A stretch of 64,000 nt of DNA from Bradyrhizobium sp. CSA112 (GTDB taxonomy: Bacteria > Pseudomonadota > Alphaproteobacteria > Rhizobiales > Xanthobacteraceae), in assembly GCF_029051645.1 (NCBI RefSeq), contig NZ_JAACFS010000035.1, forward strand, positions 1 to 64,000, written 5' to 3'. Shown here piece by piece: positions 2,309-18,041 of this stretch (within the stretch, counting starts at the first letter, position 1; each line of letters begins with the position of its first letter). The translations under genes and the position numbers were made by a program. Below the pieces are notes generated by a model. The model was given only the letters and a program-made list of their open reading frames with translations. It was not told the origin of the DNA and searched no databases.

Positions 2309-3229
2309 CTATGCTGGCTTATTCCTGCGCCGCTCGCGCTTCCGCCACTCCGCGACAAAGGCTACGAACGCGGCCAGCGCCGGCGGCGGCTGGCGGCGGC
2401 TCGGATAATACAGAAACGGTCCAGGAAACGGCGCGCACCAATCGTCGAGTACGCTGACGAGCGCACCTGATTTGATGCCGTAGCGAACGTAACCCTCGAA
2501 TGTCAGCCAGAAGCCCGTGCCATCATGGACGGCGCGTAGCGCTAGTCCCAGATGGGTCGCGATCAACTTTGCCGGCGGCGAGACCTTGACGACGCGGCCC
2601 GCCTTTTCGAATTCCCAATCCAGCATCGCGCCGCTGCCAAAGCGGGTGCGGATGCAGGCGTGATCGAGCAGCTCCTTCGGATGTTTCGGCCGGCCATGCT
2701 GCGCGACATACTCGCGCGAGGCTACCACGGCGTAGCGCTGTGGCGCCCCGAGCGAGACCGCGATCATGTCCTGCGCCAGATGCTCGCCGTAGCGCACGCC
2801 GGCATCGAAACCCTGGGCCACGATATCGACGAACGAACTCTCGCCGACGACCTCCAGATCGATCTTGGGATACGCTGCAAGAAACGGAGCGACCATCGGC
2901 GCCAGCACCAGATCGATCGCCGGCGGCGGCGCATTGATGCGCAAACGTCCTGACGGCACGGCGCGCAGGCCGCGCACCTGGTCGAGCGCCGCGCCGACAT
3001 CTGATATCGCCGGGCCGACGCGGGCCAATAACAGCTCGCCGGCTTCGGTGAGGGCGACGCTGCGCGTCGTGCGATTCATCAACCGGACGCCGAGCCGCTC
3101 CTCCATGTCGCGCAGCCGCTGGCTGAGGCTGGAGACGGAGACGCCCTGCTCGGTCGCGGCGCGGCGGAAATTCCGGGTGCGCGCCACGGCAACGAAGGCG
3201 TCGAGATCGCGGAGATCAAAATTCCTCAT
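2309..3229 (-). CDS. LysR-family transcriptional regulator
   Basis: A 306-residue LysR-type regulator. The N-terminal winged helix-turn-helix covers residues about 1-60 (DLDAFVAVARTRNFRRAA, VSSLSQRLRDMEERLGVRL, RTTRSVALTEAG). The remaining part is the periplasmic-binding-protein-like effector domain; the C terminus (residues about 295-306) is strongly basic. It is divergent from the aldo/keto reductase at 3348, the usual layout for a LysR regulator and its target, so it probably controls that gene and itself; the inducer is unknown. An inverted repeat lies directly before its start codon. Confidence 0.9.
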   Translation of the reverse strand: MRNFDLRDLDAFVAVARTRNFRRAATEQGVSVSSLSQRLRDMEERLGVRLMNRTTRSVALTEAGELLLARVGPAISDVGAALDQVRGLRAVPSGRLRINAPPPAIDLVLAPMVAPFLAAYPKIDLEVVGESSFVDIVAQGFDAGVRYGEHLAQDMIAVSLGAPQRYAVVASREYVAQHGRPKHPKELLDHACIRTRFGSGAMLDWEFEKAGRVVKVSPPAKLIATHLGLALRAVHDGTGFWLTFEGYVRYGIKSGALVSVLDDWCAPFPGPFLYYPSRRQPPPALAAFVAFVAEWRKRERRRNKPA

Positions 3230-3247
3230 TGTTCGATATAGTGAACA
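3230..3247. promoter_or_regulatory. Candidate LysR operator
   Basis: TGTTC and GAACA flank 8 bases (TGTTCGATATAGTGAACA), an inverted repeat of the TTC-N-GAA type used by LysR regulators, abutting the start codon of the LysR gene and 100 bases before the divergent reductase. A second weaker inverted repeat, AAGCT/AGCTT, follows at 3247-3270. The assignment is inferred from symmetry and position. Confidence 0.5.
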
Positions 3248-3347
3248 AGCTATTTGGAATTGTCCAGCTTATCGTCACCATTGAGAGGGTTCATATCAGC
3301 CTCGTCATCACGGCGCGTAACGCCCCACGATTTCGAGGAGAACCATC

Positions 3348-4343
3348 ATGGAAAAACGCAAACTCGGCTCCACCGGCCCCACCGTCTCAGCGATCGGCCT
3401 CGGCTGCATGGGCATGTCAGATTTTTACGGCCCCGCCGACCGCAGCGAGAGCATCGCCACGATCCATGCCGCACTCGATGCAGGAATTACGTTGCTCGAC
3501 ACCGGCGATTTCTACGGCATGGGCCACAATGAGATGCTGATCCGCGAAGCGCTCGCTGGCCGTAAACGCGATAATCTGCAGATCAGCGTGAAGTTCGGGG
3601 CGCTGCGCGATCCCAACAAGGGCTTTCTCGGCTATGACAGCCGCCCGGCCGCGATCAGGAATTTTGTCGCCTATTCGCTGCAGCGGCTCGGCGTCGACAC
3701 CATCGACATCTATCGGCCGGCGCGGCTCGATCCGGATGTGCCGATCGAAGAAACCGTCGGCGCGATGGCCGACATGGTGAAAGCCGGCTGGATCAGACAT
3801 ATCGGTCTTTCCGAAGTCGGCTCCGACACCATTCGTCGGGCGCACGCCGTGCATCCCATCGTCGACTTGCAGATCGAGTATTCGCTGCTTGCACGCGGCA
3901 TCGAGAACGACATCCTGAAGACCTGCCGCGAGCTTGGCATCGGCATCACCGCCTACGGCGTGCTGGCGCGCGGCCTGATCAGCGGTCACTGGACCAAGGA
4001 TCGGTCCGGCGCGCAGGACTTTCGCGCCATCAGCCCGCGCTTTCAGGGCAGCAATCTCGATGCCAACCTGGTGCTGGTGGACTCGTTGCGACGAATTGCC
4101 GACGATGTCGGTGCTTCGCCGGCGCAGGTCGCCATCGCCTGGGTCGCGGCGCAGGGCAACGATATCGTGCCGCTGGTCGGCGCCCGCCGTCGCGACCGTC
4201 TCGCTGAAGCGCTCGGTGCACTCGACGTGAAGCTGACGCCGGCTCATCTGGCCGCACTTGCCGATGCGTTCCCGCCGGGCGCGGCCGCGGGGGCGCGCTA
4301 TCCCGAGGCGCAGCTCGCGCATATGGACAGCGAGAAGCGGTGA
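3348..4343 (+). CDS. Aldo/keto reductase with a substituted catalytic tetrad
   Basis: A 331-residue aldo/keto reductase (TIM barrel, NADPH-dependent carbonyl reduction). The N-terminal [12 protein letters not shown] segment and DTGDFYG are typical of the YajO/AKR13-like group. Of the AKR tetrad, Asp51, Tyr56 and Lys82 are present, but the site that normally reads QHR(V)DP reads RPARLDP, so the catalytic His is Ala125. The enzyme may still be active, as the His tunes rather than carries the hydride chemistry. ATG at 3348 follows a GAGGAG ribosome site. Divergent from the LysR gene, which probably regulates it. Substrate unknown. Confidence 0.88.
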
Positions 4344-8488: not shown

Positions 8489-9357
8489 TTCGGGCACCAG
8501 AAGGTCGAGCGGCCGTTCTGCACGAAGCGCCGCACGACGCCGCCGCAGCCCTTGGTCTGGCATTTCTCGCCTTCGCGATCATAGACCTGGAATGAATGCT
8601 GGAAATAGCCGAGTTCGCCCGAGGTCAACCGATGGTCGTTGATCGAGGAGCCGCCGGCCTTGATCGCCTGATTGAGCACCGCGTGAATCGCGCCGACCAA
8701 CCGCCCGGCATAGTCGGTCGGCTCGCCCTTTTTCGTCGCCAGCGTCGCCGCCAATCGGCGCGGCGACAGATGCGACCGGTACAGCGCCTCGCAGACATAG
8801 ATATTGCCGAGCCCTGCGACCACGCGCTGGTCGAGCAGCGCGGCCTTCAGGCTGGTCTTCTTGTTGAAGCATGAGCGCGCCAGCATCGCGGCGTCGAATT
8901 CGTTGCCGAGCGGCTCGGGGCCGAGGCCCTTCAACAGCGGCTCATCTTCCAGCGCATTGCGGGCGATGATCTTCATGTAACCGAAACGGCGCGGATCGTT
9001 GAACACGATCGCCGCGCCCGATGACATGTGAAACACCACATGATCGTGCGTGCGGTCGTCGCTGCGCGGATGGTGGAATTGGCCGGGCGCGTTGTTGAAG
9101 TCGCCTTCGAGCACCCGGAACGAGCCGGACATGCCCAGATGCATCAGCAGCACGTCGCCGGAGGCGAGATCGGCCATCAGGTATTTGGCGCGGCGGCCTA
9201 GACCGGTCACGGTCTGACCTTCCAGCCGCGCGATAAAGTCTTTTTGAAAGGGAAACCGCAAATCCTTGCGCCGGGCTTCCGCTTTGAGGATTTTCGACCC
9301 CTCCATGGCGGGCTGCAGGCCGCGGCGGACGGTCTCAACTTCGGGCAATTCAGGCAT
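8476..9357 (-). CDS. mutM: Formamidopyrimidine-DNA glycosylase (Fpg/MutM)
   Basis: A 293-residue bifunctional glycosylase/AP lyase that removes 8-oxoguanine and formamidopyrimidines from DNA. The catalytic N-terminal PELPEVE is intact, with Pro2 as the nucleophile after Met removal, which fixes the start at 9357 although the frame stays open upstream. The helix-two-turn-helix region contains [15 protein letters not shown], and the C-terminal zinc finger has four Cys (CQTKGCGG ... WCPKCQK). It is divergent from ubiE with 78 bases between, and overlaps the downstream GNAT gene. Confidence 0.96.
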
Positions 9358-9435
9358 GCAGGCATTCACCTTATGGAGGTGACGTGATAGCGCCATTGCG
9401 GCGGGCGCGCTATGGTCCGGTAATGGAGTAAAGTG

Positions 9436-10197
9436 ATGGATCGGCCGGATCAAACCACCCATTTTGGCTACAGGGACGTGCCCCTGGGGGATAAGCAGAC
9501 GCTGGTGAACGACGTATTTCACAGCGTGGCGTCCCGCTACGACCTGATGAACGACCTGATGTCCGCAGGCCTGCACCGGGTCTGGAAAGGCATCATGATC
9601 AATGCGCTCAATCCGCCGAAGGGCGATGCGCCGTTTGCGCTGCTCGACGTCGCCGGCGGCACCGGAGATATCGCCTTCCGCGCAGCCGGGGCGGCAGGTG
9701 CAGGCTTTCACGCCACTGTCTGCGACATTAATACCGACATGCTCGGGGTTGGCCGCAACCGCGCGCTCGCGCGTCATCTCGACCAGCAGGTGTCCTTTGT
9801 CGAGGGCAATGCCGAGGCACTGGCGTTTCCGGCGCGTTCTTTCGACGCCTACACCATTGCGTTCGGCATTCGCAACGTGCCGCGGATCGACGCCGCGCTG
9901 CGCGAAGCCTATCGCGTGCTGCGGCCCGGCAGCAGATTTTTGTGCCTGGAATTCTCCACCGTCGACGTTCCGGGGCTCGACCGGCTCTATGACCTATTCT
10001 CGTTCAAGGTGATTCCGCCGCTCGGCCGCGCCGTGACGGGCGATGCTGAATCCTATCAGTATCTCGTCGAATCGATCCGGAAATTCCCCCGGCCCAATGT
10101 ATTTGCCGAGATGATCCGCGACGCCGGCTTTTCCCGGGTGAAGTGGGAAAGCCTTTCCGGCGGTATCGTGGCGTTGCATTCGGGCTGGCGTTTGTGA
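9436..10197 (+). CDS. ubiE: Demethylmenaquinone/demethoxyubiquinol C-methyltransferase UbiE
   Basis: A 253-residue class I SAM-dependent methyltransferase for ubiquinone (and menaquinone) synthesis. [21 protein letters not shown] is the UbiE N-terminal signature, followed by the SAM site [11 protein letters not shown] and the late motif [22 protein letters not shown] at 9436 is preferred over the GTG at 9433 because a GGAG site lies 7 bases before it. The gene opens the ubiE-ubiB-coaBC-dut operon and its TGA overlaps the ubiB start. Confidence 0.95.
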
Positions 10198-11768
10198 TTT
10201 CTGCGGCCACCCACATCGCGCGGCTCGTCCGCGCCGCTTACGTGTTCGCACGCGAAGGCGTGTTCGGCGTCGTCGACCCGAGCCTGGTGCCACCGCCCGG
10301 TCAGCTCGCGCTGCGGCTGGCGCGATTGATCGAACGCCCCGGCGACAAATCCGGTCCGCGGCTATCGCGCGCGCTGACACGGCTCGGCCCCGCTTATCTC
10401 AAGCTCGGACAGTTTCTGGCGACCCGGCCCGACGTGGTCGGCGTCGCGATGGCCCGCGATCTGGAAAGCCTGCAGGACCGCCTGCCGCCGTTTTCGCAAA
10501 GCGAAGCCGAGGCCGTGATTGCCGCGTCGCTGGAACGCTCTGTGGCTAAAGCGTTTGTCAGCCTCGGGCCGGCGGTCGCCGCCGCCTCGATTGCGCAGGT
10601 GCATCGCGGCGAGATCGAGCGGCATGGCGTACGCCGGCCGGTCGCCGTCAAAGTGCTCCGGCCCAATGTCGCCACGCGCTTCCGGCGCGATCTCTCCGAT
10701 TTTTTCTTCGTCGCCCATAATGCGGAAGCGCATTCGGCCGAAGCGCGGCGGCTGCGGCTGATCGAGGTCATCAACACGATGTCCCGCACGGTCGCGATGG
10801 AGATGGACCTGCGGCTCGAGGCGGCCGCCCTGTCCGAGATGGCGGAGAACACACGGGACGATCCGGATTTCCGCGTGCCGGCCGTCGACTGGGACCGCAC
10901 CACTCACAACGTGCTGACGATGGAGTGGATCGACGGCATCGCGCTGAACGACCACGCGCGGCTCCAACAATCGCATGTCGACATGCCCGATCTCGGGCGC
11001 AAGGTGATCCAGAGCTTCCTGCGCCATGCGCTGCGCGACGGCTTCTTCCATGCCGACATGCATCCCGGCAATCTGTTTCTCGACGATACCGGACGGCTGG
11101 TGGCCGTCGATTTCGGCATCATGGGCCGGCTCGGGCTGAAGGAGCGGCGTTTCCTTGCGGAGATTTTGCTGGGCTTCATCACGCGGGACTACCGCCGCGT
11201 CGCGGAGGTGCATTTCGAGGCCGGCTACGTGCCGGGCCATCACTCGGTCGAGAATTTCGCGCAAGCCATCCGCGCCATCGGCGAGCCGATCCATAATCGC
11301 ACCGCCGAAGAAATCTCGATGGCGAAGCTGTTGACGCTGCTGCTTGAGGTCACCGGGCTGTTCGACATGCAGACCCGGCCCGAACTGATCCTGCTGCAAA
11401 AGACCATGGTGGTGGTCGAAGGCGTCGCGCGCGGCTTCGACCCCAAGCTCGATATCTGGAAGGTGGCCGATCCCGTGGTGCGCGAATGGATCGAGCGCAA
11501 TCTCGGCCCCCTCGGGCGGGTTCAGAGCGCGATGTCCGGCGCCGGCGAGCTTAGCCGCGTGGCGGCGAGCCTGCCGGCAATCGCTTCCCGGGCAGTCGCC
11601 GTGATCGAGCACATGGAGAAGATGACCCGGGAGGGCCTGACGCTGTCGCCGGAGACGATCGCCGCCCTGGGCCGCGCCGAGGGCCGCAAGAGCCGCTGGC
11701 GGACGGTGGCACTCTGGATCATTGCGGTGACCTTTATCGGAATTTTGATCGCTATCCGACAGTTGTGA
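10194..11768 (+). CDS. ubiB: Ubiquinone biosynthesis atypical kinase/ATPase UbiB
   Basis: A 524-residue ABC1/ADCK/UbiB-family protein kinase-like ATPase needed for ubiquinone synthesis, membrane-bound at the C terminus. Visible signatures are [17 protein letters not shown] (the KxGQ motif), [11 protein letters not shown] (Ala-rich loop), VAVKVLRP, the catalytic [13 protein letters not shown] and the metal-binding [11 protein letters not shown]-terminal membrane helix runs over the last 20 residues. GTG at 10194 overlaps the ubiE stop (GTGA); an in-frame GTG at 10143 would overlap ubiE by 55 bases and is less likely. Confidence 0.95.
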
Positions 11769-11823
11769 TTGCAATGCTGTCAGAGCGTGATAGCATTGAT
11801 TGCAGCGCTCGCTGGAGGCCGCC

Positions 11824-13266
11824 ATGGCCAGCCTAACCATCCGAAAACTGGACGAAACCGTCAAAGCCTATCTGCGTCTCCGCTCGGCGGGGAACGGCCG
11901 CTCGGTCGAAGAGGAAGTCCGCGTCATCCTCGGGGAGCTGATACAGGGGCGCTCCGAACTGCCAGGCGGCGCCTCCTCGCCACCGTCCACAGAGGCCCCC
12001 GGGCTGGCCTCGCGCTCCGTCAGCCCTTCCAGCGAGCGGAATGTCACCCTGATCATCGGCGGCGGCATCGCCGCCTTCAAATCGCTGGAGCTGATCCGGC
12101 GGCTGAAGGAGCGGCACATCGACGTCCGCTGCGTGCTGACCAAGGCCGCGCAGCAATTCGTCACGCCGCTTTCCGCCAGCGCACTGTCGCACGAGCGTGT
12201 CTACACTGACCTGTTCGACCCCGGCAGCGAATTCGACGCCGGCCATATCCGGCTGGCGCGCGAATGCGATTTGATCGTGGTGGCGCCGGCAACCGCGGAT
12301 CTGATGGCGAAGATGGCGCACGGCCACGCCGACGATCTCGCCAGCGCCATCCTGCTGGCGGCGAACCGGCCGATCCTGCTGGCGCCGGCGATGAACCCCT
12401 TGATGTGGAATAATGCCGCCACCCGCCGCAACGTGCTGCAGCTTAGGCGCGACGGCATCCATATGATCGGCCCCAGTGTCGGCGAGATGGCTGAAGCGGG
12501 TGAGGCCGGCGTCGGACGGATGTCGGAGGCGATCGAAATCGCCGCCGCTGCCGTCGACATTCTCCGTCCGCCGCGGCCGCGCCCGCTCACAGGCAAGCGC
12601 GTGCTGATCACGGCGGGGCCGACGCATGAGGCGATCGACCCCGTGCGCTATATCGCCAACCGTTCCTCCGGCAAACAGGGCTTTGCCATCGCCGCCGCCG
12701 CGCAGGCAGCGGGTGCCGATGTCACGCTGGTCTCCGGCCCGGTCGAATTGCGCGATCCCGCAGGCGTGACCGTGATCCGGGTGGAATCGGCGCGCGACAT
12801 GTTGCATCGGGTCGAAGCCGCCTTGCCGGCCGATATCGCGATCTTCGCAGCCGCCGTCGCCGACTGGCGGGTCGCCAATGAAGGCGAGCAAAAGCTGAAG
12901 AAGACTTCCGCCGGCATGCCGCCGCTGCAACTGGTGGAAAACCCGGACATTCTCGCAACGATTTCGAAACTGAAAGACAAGCGCCCGCCGCTGGTAATCG
13001 GATTTGCCGCCGAGACCGAGCATCTGATCGACAACGCCAAGGCCAAGATCGCGCGCAAGGGCTGCGACTGGATCGTCGCCAACGACGTCTCGCCCGCGCT
13101 AGGGGTGATGGGCGGCGATCGCAACACCGTTCATCTGCTGACGCGCGACGGCGAAGATAACAACGTCGACAACATCAAGGTGGACTCCTGGCCGGTAATG
13201 ACCAAGGAACAGGTCGCAGCCGAACTGGTGGCGAAGATTGCAAAAACCGTGGAGAAGAGTTCGTGA
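11824..13266 (+). CDS. coaBC: Bifunctional CoaBC with an N-terminal FitA-like ribbon-helix-helix domain
   Basis: A 480-residue fusion. Residues 1-40 ([30 protein letters not shown]) match the ribbon-helix-helix fold of FitA-type antitoxins. A Pro/Ser-rich linker leads to the phosphopantothenoylcysteine decarboxylase half from about residue 73 ([34 protein letters not shown]) and the phosphopantothenate-cysteine ligase half from about 260 ([26 protein letters not shown]). CoaBC makes 4'-phosphopantetheine for coenzyme A; usual length is about 400 residues, so about 70 are extra. No toxin gene adjoins. The stop overlaps the dut start (GTGA). Role of the RHH domain is unknown; dimerisation or DNA binding are possibilities. 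Confidence 0.93.
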
Positions 13267-13721
13267 GCGCGACAGTGAAGGTCGACATCCGCCAATTGCC
13301 GCACGGCGAAGGTCTCGCGCTGCCGGCCTATCAGAGCGCCGACGCCGCCGGGCTCGACCTTCTCGCGGCAGTGCCGGCGGACACGCCCCTGATCCTGCCT
13401 CCGGGCAAATACGCAATGGTGCCGACCGGGCTCACGATCGCGCTGCCTTCAGGATATGAGGCCCAGGTACGGCCACGTTCCGGACTTGCCGCCAAACATG
13501 GCGTCACCGTCTTGAATTCGCCGGGCACGGTGGACGCGGATTACCGCGGCGAGGTCAACGTGCTCTTGATCAATCATGGCGACACGTCGTTCCCGATCCG
13601 GCGCGGCGAGCGCATCGCGCAGATGGTGATCGCGCCTGTCGTGCAGGCGCAACTCGTTCCGGTGGTGTCGCTTCCAACAACCGACCGCGGCAGTGGCGGT
13701 TTCGGCTCGACAGGACGCTGA
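13263..13721 (+). CDS. dut: dUTP diphosphatase
   Basis: A 152-residue trimeric dUTPase that hydrolyses dUTP to dUMP and pyrophosphate, keeping uracil out of DNA and feeding dTMP synthesis. All five motifs are seen in order: [41 protein letters not shown] and [11 protein letters not shown]. The GTG start overlaps the coaBC stop by four bases, so it is translationally coupled as the last gene of the operon. Confidence 0.96.
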
Positions 13722-13867
13722 ATCGGTTGGTAAAGGCGACTCTCAACGGTAACGGCCGAATTTTTCACAGCCAAATTTGCGTTCACGGTCTGGACTCTTA
13801 CCGGCTGACTCCCGAAGGGGATACTCTCGACCCGATTCGTGCAGAGCGCGACCAGCAAAAGTGGGGT

Positions 13868-13889
13868 CCGGTTTTGCGTCCGGGCGCGC
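13868..13889. repeat. Short dispersed repeat fragment, copy 1
   Basis: Twenty-two bases beginning CCGGTTTTGCGTCCGG and ending GCGCGC are identical at 53672-53693, and the preceding bases are related (GCAAAAGTGG here, GCATAAGCGG there). It lies between dut and divL. It looks like the conserved core of an interspersed sequence. Confidence 0.6.
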
Positions 13890-14004
13890 TCACTCCTATT
13901 AGTTTAGTCGGCACATAATCTCCACGCCACACCGCTCACACTTTGGCGGATCATGCGCTGGGGGTAGCGCCGGGCCTGCAGTGGTGCGTTCTTTGGGGCA
14001 AATA

Positions 14005-16524
14005 ATGTCGGGCGTAGTCGCGGCGATGCGTCGAAACCTGCTGTCGTGCACCTCACTGGCGCGCCACGGCGTGATTGCGCTCGCCACCGCCCTGTCCGCC
14101 TCGCCGGAACCCGCATTGGCCGCTGATTCGACCATCGCGCAGACAATTTCGGCCTTGTTCGACCTCAATCACCAGGAATTCGCAGTGCTGACGACGGCGC
14201 TGTCGCTGCTCGGCTTTACTGTCGTCGCTGCGATCCTGCTGATGCGCACGCGCATTAAGGCCACCCGAATGGAACTAAACCTGCGCTCCGATATCGCCGA
14301 CCTGCAGGTGCAGGCCGATCGGCTGCGCGCGCTCTTGTTCGCCGAGCCCCAGGTCCTGATCGCCTGGGCGGCGGGCGATAACCGGCCCCAGATCAGCGGC
14401 GACACCTCGTTGCTGATCTCGCAGGACGCGCTGTCGAATTCCCCGCAACGCATTCTCGCCTTTGGAACCTGGTTGCCGCCGGAACCGGCGCTGCGGATGG
14501 ACCATGCGGTGGATGCGCTACGCGAGGCCGGCGAAGGCTTTCTGCTCAATCTCTCCACCTCGAACGGCCGCGCGATCGAAGCGATGGGCCGCGCAATAGG
14601 AGGGCAAGCCATTGTGCGGATTCGCGAACTCGGCGGGTTGCGCCGGGAACTCGCCGAGTCCAATCTCCGCTACCGGACGCTGTTGGAGGAAACCGAGCTG
14701 CTGCGCGACTTCGCCGCCGCTGCGCCCTGGCCGATGTGGGCCAAGAGCGCAGAAGGCAATCTGCGTTACGCAAACGCGGCCTATGTGCGCGCCACCGAGG
14801 GCGCAAGCGTCGCGGATACGATCCACCGCAACCTCGAACTGCTGGAGAAAGACCAGCGCGCCGAGATGGGCCGGGTGCTGAACGACAATTCCACCTTCAG
14901 CGCGCGGCTGCCGATCGTGGTCGGCGGCGAGCGGCGCATCTATGATGTTCAGACGCTCAAGCTCGGCGGCGGTAGCGCCGGCATCGCCATCGACGCCAGC
15001 GAGGCAACCGCGTTGCGCGACGCCATGGAGCGGATGGCGGAAGCCCATCGCCGTACCCTCGACCAGTTGTCGTCGGGGGTGGCCGTATTCGACGGTCAGC
15101 GACGGCTTGCCTTCTACAATGAATCCTACCGGCGGCTGTGGGGACTCGATCAGGCCTTCCTCGACTCCAATCCCGACGATTCCAGCGTGCTCGACCGGCT
15201 GCGCGCGGCGCGCAAGCTGCCTGAGCAACCGGATTTCCGGGCCTGGAAGGCCAAGCTGCACGAAGCCTACCGCTCCGTCGAGCCGGAGACCTACACCTGG
15301 TTCCTGCCCGACGGCCGCGCCGTCAGCGTTGTCACCACTCCGAATCTCGAAGGCGGCGTCACCTATCTGTTCGACAATGTCACCGAGAGCCTCGATCTTG
15401 CGCGCCGGTACGACCGGCTGAGCCGGGTCCAGCACGAAACGCTCGACAATCTGGCAGAAGCCGTCGCGGTGTTCGGCAGCAATGGCCGCGTGGAACTGTT
15501 CAATCCCGCTTTCGCGAAGATGTGGAAGCTGTCGGCGGAATCGCTGAAAGAGCAACCCCACATCGAGACCGTGGAAGCGTGGTGCAAGCCGCTGTTCGAT
15601 GACGCCCTGACCTGGCGGGCGCTGCGCGAGGCGATCACCGCGATCGAGAATCGTGCGCAGGTGGCGCTGAAGCTGGAGCGTAAGGACGGCAGCGTGCTGG
15701 ACTGCATGACCATGCCGCTGCCCGACGGCGCGACGCTACTGACCTTCCAGGACATCACCGACACCGAAAATGTCGAGCGCGCGCTACGCGAGCGCAACGA
15801 GGCGCTCGAAGCCGCCGACCAGATGAAGGTGGATTTCGTCCACCACGTGTCCTACGAACTGCGCGCGCCGCTCACCACCATCATCGGCTTTGCGCATTTC
15901 CTCAGCGATCCCTCAACCGGCCCGCTGACGCAGAAGCAGGCCGAGTATCTCGACTACGTCACCAAGTCGACCAATGCGCTGCTGGCGCTCACCAACAACA
16001 TCCTCGATCTCGCCACCATCGACGCCGGCGCCATGAAGCTCGAGCTCGGCCCCGTCAATATCGAAAAAGCCATCCAGGCTGCCGCCGAAGGCATTCAGGA
16101 CCGGCTGGCGACCGATCGCATCGAACTCAGGGTCGATATCGATCCCGATATCGGCAACTTCACCGGCGACGAGCGGCGCGTGGTGCAGGTGCTCTATAAC
16201 CTGCTCGCCAACGCCGTCGGCTTCTCGCCGCACGATGCCGCGGTCACGATCACCGCGCGGCGAACCGATAATCGTGTGATCTTCACTGTCAGCGATTCCG
16301 GTCCCGGCATTCCGGCTGACGTGAAAGACAAGGTGTTCGACTGGTTCGAGAGCCACTCGCACGGCTCGCGGCATCGCGGCGCCGGCCTCGGCCTGTCGCT
16401 GGTGCGCTCCTTTGTCGAACTGCATGGCGGCAAGGTGCGCGTCGATTCGGTGGTCGGCAAGGGCACGACGGTCGCCTGCGACTTTCCGATCGACCAGAAC
16501 GCGCATCGCAACGCCGCCGAATGA
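14005..16524 (+). CDS. divL: DivL-type tyrosine pseudokinase with PAS domains
   Basis: An 839-residue membrane-anchored histidine-kinase homologue. One membrane helix lies near residues 55-75 (TALSLLGFTVVAAILLM). Three PAS-like segments follow (NLRYANAAYVRAT; RRLAFYNESYRRLWGLD; NGRVELFNPAFAKMWKL). In the dimerisation helix the phospho-acceptor His is Tyr617 (HHVSYELRAPLTTIIGF), the hallmark of DivL. The ATP-binding boxes remain (N box YNLLANAVGFS, G1 SDSGPGIP, G2 GAGLGLSLV). In Caulobacter DivL senses DivK and tunes CckA to control CtrA; the role here is inferred. ATG 14005 has a GGGG site; a GTG at 13981 is an alternative. The stop overlaps tsaE-amgK. Confidence 0.9.
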   Translation: MSGVVAAMRRNLLSCTSLARHGVIALATALSASPEPALAADSTIAQTISALFDLNHQEFAVLTTALSLLGFTVVAAILLMRTRIKATRMELNLRSDIADLQVQADRLRALLFAEPQVLIAWAAGDNRPQISGDTSLLISQDALSNSPQRILAFGTWLPPEPALRMDHAVDALREAGEGFLLNLSTSNGRAIEAMGRAIGGQAIVRIRELGGLRRELAESNLRYRTLLEETELLRDFAAAAPWPMWAKSAEGNLRYANAAYVRATEGASVADTIHRNLELLEKDQRAEMGRVLNDNSTFSARLPIVVGGERRIYDVQTLKLGGGSAGIAIDASEATALRDAMERMAEAHRRTLDQLSSGVAVFDGQRRLAFYNESYRRLWGLDQAFLDSNPDDSSVLDRLRAARKLPEQPDFRAWKAKLHEAYRSVEPETYTWFLPDGRAVSVVTTPNLEGGVTYLFDNVTESLDLARRYDRLSRVQHETLDNLAEAVAVFGSNGRVELFNPAFAKMWKLSAESLKEQPHIETVEAWCKPLFDDALTWRALREAITAIENRAQVALKLERKDGSVLDCMTMPLPDGATLLTFQDITDTENVERALRERNEALEAADQMKVDFVHHVSYELRAPLTTIIGFAHFLSDPSTGPLTQKQAEYLDYVTKSTNALLALTNNILDLATIDAGAMKLELGPVNIEKAIQAAAEGIQDRLATDRIELRVDIDPDIGNFTGDERRVVQVLYNLLANAVGFSPHDAAVTITARRTDNRVIFTVSDSGPGIPADVKDKVFDWFESHSHGSRHRGAGLGLSLVRSFVELHGGKVRVDSVVGKGTTVACDFPIDQNAHRNAAE

Positions 16525-18041
16525 CCGTATCAGCGACATTTACAGTGGCGCTCGCGAACGAGACGGCAACGGCGCATCTGATGGCCGACCTCGCGCTCCT
16601 GGTCGACCCGGGTGACGTGATTACGCTTTCGGGCGATCTCGGCGCGGGGAAGACGGCCGCGGCACGGGCGATGATCCGCTATCTCGCCAACGATTCCGCG
16701 CTGGAAGTGCCAAGCCCCACGTTCACGCTGGCGCAGAGCTACGAGCTGCCGTTTCCGATCGTGCACGCCGATCTCTACCGCATCAATGATGCGAGCGAGC
16801 TGGAGGAGATCGGATTGTCGCCGTTGCCGGAGGGCACGTTGGCGCTGATCGAATGGCCGGAGCGCGCAGGCGACGCGCTGCCCGACGATCGCATCGACAT
16901 CGCCTTCAGCCATCGCCCCGCCCTTGGATCCACCGCGCGCGCCGCCGAAATCACCGGTTATGGCAAGGCGGCGGCGCCGGTGGCACGATTGGAGGGCTTG
17001 CGCAAATTTCTCACTGAGGCCGGCTTCCTGGATGCGGCGCGCGAGCGGATGCCCGGCGACGCCTCGACGCGCTCCTACGCGCGGCTGATCCGCGGCGACG
17101 GCACCTCGATCCTGATGAATTCGCCGCGCCGTCCGGACGGTCCGGCGATCTATGATGGAAAATCCTACAGCGCAGCCGTTCATCTCGCCGAGGATGTCAA
17201 GCCGTTCGTCGCCATCGACAACGGCCTGCGCGCACACGGCTTCTCGGCGCCCGCGATCCGTCACGCCGATATCGAATCCGGCTTTCTGATCACCGAGGAT
17301 TTCGGCAGCGCCGCGATCGTCGAAGGCGACCCGCCGCGGCCGATCGTGGAATGCTACGAGGCCGCCACCGACATGCTGGCGGCGCTTCATCGCGAAACTA
17401 TGCCCGAAACGGCGCCGCTGGCGCCGCAGCTCACCTACGATATTCCAGTTTACGGTATCGATACGTGGTTGATCGAGATGCGGCTGATGCTCGAATGGTA
17501 TCTGCCGGATCGCGGCGCTGAAATCAGTGATCAACGGCGCGACGAATTCGTCACGATGTGGCGCGCGCTGCTGGAGAAACCCGCGGCCGCGCCGCGGACC
17601 TGGGTGCTGCGCGATTTTCATTCGCCCAACATCATCTGGCTCGGCGACCGCACGGGGATTTTGCGCATCGGCATCATCGACTTCCAGGACGCCGTGCTTG
17701 GCCCTGCCGCCTACGATCTGGTGTCGCTGCTCCAGGATGCGCGGCTCGACGTTCCCGAACAGCTCGAGCTGGCGCTCTTGACCCGCTACATCAAGGCGCG
17801 CCGCGTGACCGATAATCAGTTCGATCCGGCCAGCTTCGCCGAGCTTTACGCCATCATGTCGGCGCAGCGGAACACGCGCCTGCTCGGCACCTTTGCCCGG
17901 CTCAACCGGCGCGACGGCAAGCCGCAATATCTGCGCCACCAGCCCCGGATCTGGACCTACCTGAACCGCTCGCTGGCGCATCCGGCGCTATCGGCAGTTC
18001 GCGAATGGTATGCCGCCAACGTGCCGCCGCCGCTGCTCTGA
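16521..18041 (+). CDS. tsaE: TsaE / AmgK-type sugar kinase fusion
   Basis: A 506-residue two-part protein. Residues about 1-155 are TsaE, the ATPase of the t6A37 tRNA-modification complex (Walker A GDLGAGKT, then SPTFTLAQSYE and HADLYRI). Residues about 165-506 are an aminoglycoside-phosphotransferase-fold kinase (RMPGDASTRSYARL, catalytic VLRDFHSPNIIWL, metal site GIIDFQDAVLGPAAYDLVSLLQDA) like AmgK, which phosphorylates N-acetylmuramate and N-acetylglucosamine at C1 for peptidoglycan recycling. The next enzyme of that route, a MurU-like nucleotidyltransferase, is at 18582. It overlaps the divL stop by four bases (ATGA). The fusion is known in Hyphomicrobiales. Confidence 0.92.
   Translation: MTVSATFTVALANETATAHLMADLALLVDPGDVITLSGDLGAGKTAAARAMIRYLANDSALEVPSPTFTLAQSYELPFPIVHADLYRINDASELEEIGLSPLPEGTLALIEWPERAGDALPDDRIDIAFSHRPALGSTARAAEITGYGKAAAPVARLEGLRKFLTEAGFLDAARERMPGDASTRSYARLIRGDGTSILMNSPRRPDGPAIYDGKSYSAAVHLAEDVKPFVAIDNGLRAHGFSAPAIRHADIESGFLITEDFGSAAIVEGDPPRPIVECYEAATDMLAALHRETMPETAPLAPQLTYDIPVYGIDTWLIEMRLMLEWYLPDRGAEISDQRRDEFVTMWRALLEKPAAAPRTWVLRDFHSPNIIWLGDRTGILRIGIIDFQDAVLGPAAYDLVSLLQDARLDVPEQLELALLTRYIKARRVTDNQFDPASFAELYAIMSAQRNTRLLGTFARLNRRDGKPQYLRHQPRIWTYLNRSLAHPALSAVREWYAANVPPPLL

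Follow-up and report, generated by a model that had tools for sequence, protein, structure and literature searches.

A FitA-like ribbon-helix-helix domain fused to CoaBC in Bradyrhizobium: a probable autogenous regulator of antitoxin origin

Why should an enzyme of CoA synthesis begin with what appears to be part of an antitoxin? The question is raised by a coaBC gene in a 64,000-nucleotide stretch of DNA from Bradyrhizobium sp. CSA112 (contig NZ_JAACFS010000035.1, positions 1 to 64,000), which as a whole is referred to here as the window. The explanation proposed is that a FitA-type antitoxin domain, captured and domesticated repeatedly, still reads an antitoxin operator and makes CoaBC an autogenous regulator similar to PutA. 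Judged on sequence comparisons we regard this as very probable, and the evidence for it, together with the alternatives, is set out below.

The fused gene and its N-terminal domain

The coaBC gene lies in an open frame of 11800-13266, with the following layout.

10143..11768, plus strand: upstream neighbour of coaBC, an open frame which we take to be ubiB-like by recognition from its sequence
11814..11818, plus strand: GGAGG, Shine-Dalgarno-like, ahead of the ATG at 11824 (by eye)
11824..13266, plus strand: coaBC with an N-terminal FitA-like ribbon-helix-helix (RHH) domain, 480 amino acids
11824..11949, plus strand: FitA-like RHH domain, putatively DNA-binding, residues 1-42 (PF22513, alignment, model, Foldseek)
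11950..12033, plus strand: Ser/Pro/Ala-rich linker, residues 43-70, of low confidence in models and with no in-frame ATG, GTG or TTG
12034..13263, plus strand: CoaBC enzyme (CoaC decarboxylase, then CoaB ligase), residues 71-480 (TIGR00521, PF02441, PF04127)
13263..13721, plus strand: downstream neighbour, an open frame overlapping the coaBC stop, presumably dut-like by recognition from its sequence

The enzyme part gives a full-length equivalog match to TIGR00521 over residues 71-472, scoring 391.7 bits where the cut-off is 219.7, with PF04127 matched at 255-439 and PF02441 from residue 73, which is where an earlier note, made from the sequence alone, had placed the decarboxylase behind a Ser/Pro linker. 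Both catalytic domains appear complete, and decarboxylase and ligase activities are predicted. Among solved structures the best match of the full AlphaFold2 model is the M. smegmatis CoaBC 6tgv, and when the window's genome was searched with the whole protein the single match was the protein itself. Elsewhere in the window, the ORF 16521-18041 appears to combine a TsaE-like ATPase part with a phosphotransferase-like part, both recognised from sequence.

The N-terminal domain is matched by PF22513 (FitA-like_RHH, E 2.4e-15) over residues 2-38, the score being 56.6 bits for the 72-aa piece and 51.5 bits for the whole protein where 27 is the gathering score, and the only PDB sequences matching residues 1-72 with E <0.1 are those of FitA, 2h1o (0.0067) and 2bsq (0.0076), so the FitA-like RHH domain that the earlier note had seen at this N-terminus holds. 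Structure prediction gave a mixed answer. In the AlphaFold2 prediction residues 11-24 and 28-42 are helical (the second helix covering 28-40 in the full-length model) and the linker that follows is of low confidence, but in the monomer model of the RHH domain (mean pLDDT 71.6) the strand is not formed; the RHH strand forms between two chains, thus a monomer model cannot show it. The top Foldseek match of the N-terminal model is FitA 2bsq, with a probability of 0.94 but an E of only 0.42, followed by matches that include VapB, Arc, MatP and CopG; no match reaches E <0.001.

It could be supposed that the start is mis-annotated, with the true CoaBC beginning later and the N-terminal frame left untranslated. 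An in-frame ATG, GTG or TTG is present between residue 43 and the CoaC start in 66 of 110 fused genes, with a ribosome-site-like sequence ahead of such a start in 7 of the 110, and the RHH start itself has one in only 52. In the window, however, the next in-frame start past 11824 is the GTG at 12133, inside the decarboxylase, which excludes the start near 12025 that the earlier note had named as speaking against a fusion and speaks against a later true start for this gene; the N-terminus moreover matches PF22513 strongly and is under purifying selection. We consider mis-annotation extremely unlikely.

Across 21 diverse fused proteins the residues T5, R7, L9, A22, S27, E29 and R33 are invariant in the alignment (21/21), with T5 and R7 sitting in the predicted strand. 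When dN/dS was estimated from pairwise codon counts pooled in six groups of fused proteins, values of 0.02, 0.21, 0.05, 0.06, 0.12 and 0.04 were obtained for the RHH domain and, in the same order, 0.085, 0.075, 0.12, 0.15 (0.154 at most), 0.075 and 0.11 for the enzyme. The domain is below the enzyme in four of the six groups and above it in two (0.21 vs 0.075; 0.12 vs 0.075), values that indicate purifying selection on the RHH domain. They also bear on whether the domain is a passive relic of a lost toxin-antitoxin (TA) module, at most helping the enzyme to oligomerise. The faster evolution of the RHH part in two groups would suit a relic, as would the absence of the domain from many CoaBC of the same families, and the TA modules and remnants found at the same place, described below, show that such a capture can happen. 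The lower dN/dS in the other four groups and the invariance of T5 and R7 in all 21 proteins speak against it.

A profile of the fused N-termini identified the fusion in 119 genomes out of 198 for the window's family, which rules out an artefact of a single assembly, and in 46 of 180 genomes of a second family in the same order, both counted by hand; taken from about the best 150 matches of each search, these family counts should be complete, since fused N-termini ranked highest wherever present. Fused genes are also present in a third family, in at least 2 of the 28 genomes (G425 as L032, G1039 as L153). The earlier note had thought of the fusion within one family, where it is indeed widespread, although it extends to these two further families. 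Among the matches listed there are at least 18 fused proteins in a sample of the order (hand count), 2 in a class sample of 387 genomes, both of the window's genus, and 15 in a phylum sample of 299 genomes (hand count; 8 from the window's family, 7 from the second), and none of the matches listed in the class and phylum samples is a fused CoaBC from outside the order, where a strongly diverged fusion may have escaped notice. The fused members identified by name, namely Mesorhizobium species, Bartonella apis, a Pseudochrobactrum and a Rhizobiaceae bacterium, fall among second-family rows in the tree. An entry titled Bacillus subtilis strain SK6B4 (L239, 1501-2883) encodes an RHH-CoaBC with its first 50 residues differing at few positions from those of the Pseudochrobactrum (L236), and is probably a contamination or mislabelling. 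In Brucella cytisi LMG 22713 (L264) the RHH-CoaBC frame from 1501 ends after 212 residues, an early stop that we attribute to a frameshift or sequencing error.

Half-sites ahead of fused coaBC and antitoxin genes

The candidate operator of the window is located in the ubiB-coaBC gap, at 11766-11804, and is made up of the following elements.

11766..11782, no strand: first candidate operator pair, half-sites 9 bp apart (motif scan and by eye)
11772..11798, no strand: 7-bp perfect inverted repeat CAATGCT-N13-AGCATTG across both pairs (computed)
11788..11804, no strand: second candidate operator pair, half-sites 9 bp apart (motif scan)

The first pair consists of TGATTGCA at 11766-11773, a match of the motif scan that shares bases with the ubiB stop codon, and a degenerate partner TGCTGTCA at 11775-11782, found by eye; the second consists of TGATAGCA at 11788-11795 and TGATTGCA at 11797-11804, with the two pairs (11766/11775 and 11788/11797) spaced 22 bp. 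The strict 17-bp pair TGMWWKCANTGMWWKCA has a single match in the window's 8.8 Mb genome, that at 11788-11804, and ends 19 bases ahead of the coaBC ATG. An operator had earlier been proposed at the ubiE promoter, but no half-site was found there, near 9.4 kb, and the candidate has to be moved to the ubiB-coaBC gap. A consensus scan of 11600-11900 recognised no sigma-70-like promoter, and a laxer scan, which called a promoter in 67 of 110 fused genes and in 7% of resamples, is biased as the half-site itself can supply the TTG.

Upstream of fused genes in general the half-site class is the 8-mer TGMWWKCA, mostly TGATTGCA and TGCAATCA. The first 60 fused genes have 152 half-sites in 8.9 kb of upstream sequence, compared to a mean of 6.7 and a maximum of 14 in resamples (n=200; self-made from a first-order Markov model, as were those of the promoter scan), and the same 60 genes give 5 in 84 kb of coding sequence and 2 in 70 kb further upstream. 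Spacings of 9 and 23 bp are the most frequent, and three of the 60 (L050, L056, L069) have no half-site upstream. When all fused genes are considered, at least one half-site is found within 150 nt upstream in 99 of 109 (49/54 in the window's family, 48/53 in the second family and named members, 2/2 in the third), with the 9-bp pair in 75 of 109. The 10 of 109 without a strict half-site, and the lack of a recognised promoter in the window, count against autoregulation.

For coaBC with neither an RHH fusion nor an upstream RHH or PIN match, 5 of 105 loci have one half-site and none of the 105 has two, in a search window of 200 nt before CoaC as opposed to 150 nt before the start for the other classes; this class kept L037 and left out L049, L151, L180 and the loci with RHH/PIN matches. 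Standalone FitA-like antitoxins, chosen by protein similarity alone, have a half-site upstream in 47 of 58 loci and the 9-bp pairing in 29 of 58, in organisms of several phyla, and amongst the antitoxins of modules beside coaBC 22 of 34 have a strict half-site and 12 do not. From the fused (99/109), standalone (47/58) and unfused (5/105) classes it follows that the half-sites go with this RHH family and not with coaBC. With an RHH domain in the protein and matching sites before its own gene, CoaBC probably controls its own production, and the self-regulation suggested in the earlier note is favoured by these arrays, common to antitoxin genes, ahead of fused coaBC. A passive relic does not predict that half-sites should be kept before 99 of 109 fused genes against 5 of 105 unfused ones, and all things considered it is a quite unlikely reading.

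The repeats might also belong to an RNA element, an attenuator or riboswitch in the coaBC leader, instead of a protein operator. The leader in the window can indeed fold a hairpin over the repeats, yet the fold z-score is -1.54, with 15 of 200 shuffles folding as well, and no Rfam match at the gathering threshold was found in 9000-14000. The same 8-mers also stand before antitoxin genes of several phyla, with the 9-bp pairing in 29 of 58 loci, and on the fold z-score, the Rfam result and the half-sites at antitoxin genes an RNA element is very unlikely.

A further possibility is that FitA-like antitoxins encoded elsewhere in the genome read the coaBC sites, with the fused domain mainly competing, so that CoA synthesis would be tied to the state of TA modules. 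In 61 genomes of the family the strict pair occurs 53 times, against 3 for a reversed control, with 33 genomes having any. A fused coaBC follows within 300 bp in 32 of these cases, and in 2 more, from G049, the pair precedes the antitoxin located next to coaBC; 11 of the other 19 were inspected, with 6 found beside an RHH and/or PIN ORF and 5 without. Regulation in trans is what might be expected from the sharing of half-sites with standalone antitoxin genes, and from the strict pairs beside RHH/PIN ORFs elsewhere in some genomes, including the fused G010, G012, G037, G046 and G050. There is, however, no second strict pair in the window's genome, and the half-sites follow the fusion (99/109 fused vs 5/105 unfused), which makes trans-regulation as the main explanation unlikely; antitoxin cross-talk could nonetheless add to self-regulation by CoaBC.

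Toxin-antitoxin modules beside coaBC and the origins of the fusion

The locus in the window has no adjacent toxin gene: own PIN profiles gave no match over the 1300 nt upstream of coaBC, and downstream lies the dut-like frame; the FitB/PIN partner is absent, just as the earlier note had it. In relatives, RHH and PIN genes directly precede coaBC in 17 of 40 unfused loci of the second family (own profiles), with one more having a PIN remnant, a set (L265-L304) that is not a random sample, as the loci were taken in order down the second-family list after L165-L184 and five genomes (G890, G895, G923, G985, G996) were passed over. Taking all unfused second-family loci examined, 32 of 63 have a module, L174 among them with a toxin fragment only; L165-L184 had been chosen partly for their odd N-termini. 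Modules of RHH and PIN are found at 1 of 31 unfused loci in the window's family and 2 of 18 in the third family, repeats included, and at none of 13 loci in other families of the order and none of 26 in the class sample, with these locus counts containing a few repeats of one place (L150 of L049, for example). The PIN match mostly ends 14-50 bases before the CoaC part. For L088, and likewise for the antitoxin and toxin of L165, Pfam confirms PF22513 and PIN, and the antitoxins beside coaBC are of the same RHH family as the fused domain (Pfam on L088, L165 and L320). ubiB was seen upstream of the modules in some loci only, such as L088, L174, L307 and L320.

Several of these modules are in decay. 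PIN toxin fragments are retained directly before coaBC in L174, L179, L273 and L157, in L307 an antitoxin is followed by a toxin reduced to its two ends, and in L320, from the window's own family, an array of three half-sites is followed by an antitoxin, the remnant of a PIN end and then unfused coaBC. The antitoxin frame is still open in L174, L307 and L320. Amongst the fusions, the linker of L129 resembles, by eye, the tail of a FitA-type antitoxin and that of L084 the tail of the other antitoxin type, so both look like direct fossils of antitoxins. The idea of a domesticated antitoxin, also raised in the earlier note, thus draws support from the intact-looking or decaying RHH and PIN modules that precede coaBC in relatives. 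In L136, a fused RHH-CoaBC has further RHH and PIN matches upstream, thus insertion of a module beside an already fused gene seems possible.

Other regulators are also found at this place. In L049 (1402-2832) an HTH_3 domain is joined to the CoaBC N-terminus (E 8e-07, above gathering), and a perfect 11-bp inverted repeat ends a few bases before the ATG. L151 and L180 are probably HTH-CoaBC fusions too, a call that rests on reading the sequence as L151 has no Pfam match and L180 scores below gathering; a short 7-bp inverted repeat is present upstream of L180 and no inverted repeat of 6 bp or more upstream of L151. The unfused coaBC of L037 has directly upstream of it, at 2722-3365, a toxin of HigB type together with an HTH ORF that scores below gathering in Pfam.

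Trees suggest that the fused proteins form more than one clade. The tree of the second family requires 12 changes of fusion state, and well-supported branches force at least 6 of these, although such counts cannot tell gain from loss. A single clade is rejected for the second-family fusions (AU p 2.3e-8) and likewise when the first and third families are taken together (p 2.6e-7), but not for the fusions of the window's family alone (p 0.053). The trees are of one protein and were made by quick searches, near-identical rows (13 in the second-family tree, others in the first and third), duplicates and the short rows L110, L134, L160 and L309 having been dropped beforehand, and a locus that has recombined or been transferred can give the appearance of several origins. 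The unfused L178 and L320, with a module or remnant, sit inside fused clades, so the order of events was not always with fusion last; re-insertion or loss of the fusion would be possible there too.

The origin of the fusion may then have begun with the insertion of an RHH-PIN module before coaBC, after which the toxin would have decayed and a deletion, occurring more than once, would have joined the DNA-binding part of the antitoxin to the enzyme. Living relatives seem to hold a stepwise record of TA domestication, from module to decayed toxin, to antitoxin plus enzyme, to fusion, with the half-sites kept throughout, which bears on the fate of chromosomal TA modules.

Proposed mechanism and comparison with known systems

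In the mechanism proposed for self-regulation by CoaBC, two RHH chains would pair into one DNA-reading unit, with approximately one 8-bp TGMWWKCA half-site per unit, and the repetition of 9-bp pairs some 22 bp apart would suit cooperative binding by several units on one CoaBC oligomer. While occupying the ubiB-coaBC gap, the protein would limit transcription of coaBC-dut. That DNA is bound, with repression and not activation as the outcome and an oligomer sitting on the DNA, is what we infer, as is the order of events above. Release might come by dilution or by the state of the enzyme (CoA, acyl-CoA, substrate or oligomer), and any such signal is a guess. Mycobacterial CoaBC is a dodecamer with CoaC at its core, according to PMC7794376; a dodecamer would have twelve RHH chains, therefore up to six dimers could be offered to DNA. 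The same paper reports that CoaB is inhibited by CoA thioesters, which makes CoA state a plausible signal.

More tentatively, and with some doubt, it can be suggested that CoaBC repeatedly took the place of the toxin in the autoregulatory loop of the antitoxin, the oligomer tethering RHH dimers and ligand or CoA state setting repression. If so, an essential metabolic enzyme would be the 'toxin-side' partner of an antitoxin, and the TA modules before unfused coaBC would already put CoA synthesis under TA control.

The enzyme itself is of a known kind, with the window's protein containing a full-length TIGR00521 enzyme like M. smegmatis CoaBC 6tgv, but both 6tgv and the unfused relatives begin with the decarboxylase, unlike the fusion. 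As far as the available part of PMC7794376 goes, it describes control of CoaBC activity and not a DNA-binding domain, and control of CoA synthesis is presented there as feedback on enzyme activity; self-regulation, if true, would supplement such feedback with a loop at the level of transcription, the enzyme itself reading the DNA ahead of its own gene. The modules upstream of coaBC in relatives, whether of FitAB/VapBC type or HigB type, hold the same gene position as the fused domain, but encode antitoxin and toxin in frames of their own, apart from that of CoaBC.

FitA of the VapBC-type FitAB system (PDB 2h1o/2bsq) is of the same RHH family by sequence as well as being the top Foldseek match, and standalone FitA-like family members have the same half-site class upstream as fused coaBC (47/58). 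In the gonococcal fitAB operator the half-sites are TGCTATCA/TGATAGCA; nothing usable on its sequence was found in the open-access literature. The window's locus differs from FitAB in that it has no PIN match and the toxin-binding tail is replaced by the linker and CoaBC. According to PMC3920265, the FitAB toxin tethers dimers of the antitoxin and thereby promotes binding to DNA.

Searches of the open-access literature (titles and abstract starts) for CoaBC with RHH, antitoxin or autoregulation found no paper on the fusion, and nothing related was found there on domesticated antitoxin domains. An enzyme with an RHH autoregulator is already known in PutA, a trifunctional protein (RHH, proline dehydrogenase and P5C dehydrogenase) that, according to PMC5293562, is an autogenous repressor of its own genes. 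Like PutA, the window's protein has an N-terminal RHH domain, here matched by PF22513, in one chain with a metabolic flavoenzyme. As for sites at its own promoter, there are half-sites directly upstream of the start, though no promoter was recognised. Unlike PutA, the enzyme is a different one, its pathway is anabolic and not catabolic, the RHH domain is of the FitA type, and TA modules occupy the same place in relatives of the gene. What is new to us is therefore CoaBC as the enzyme, an antitoxin origin with decayed modules surviving in relatives, and the repetition of the event.
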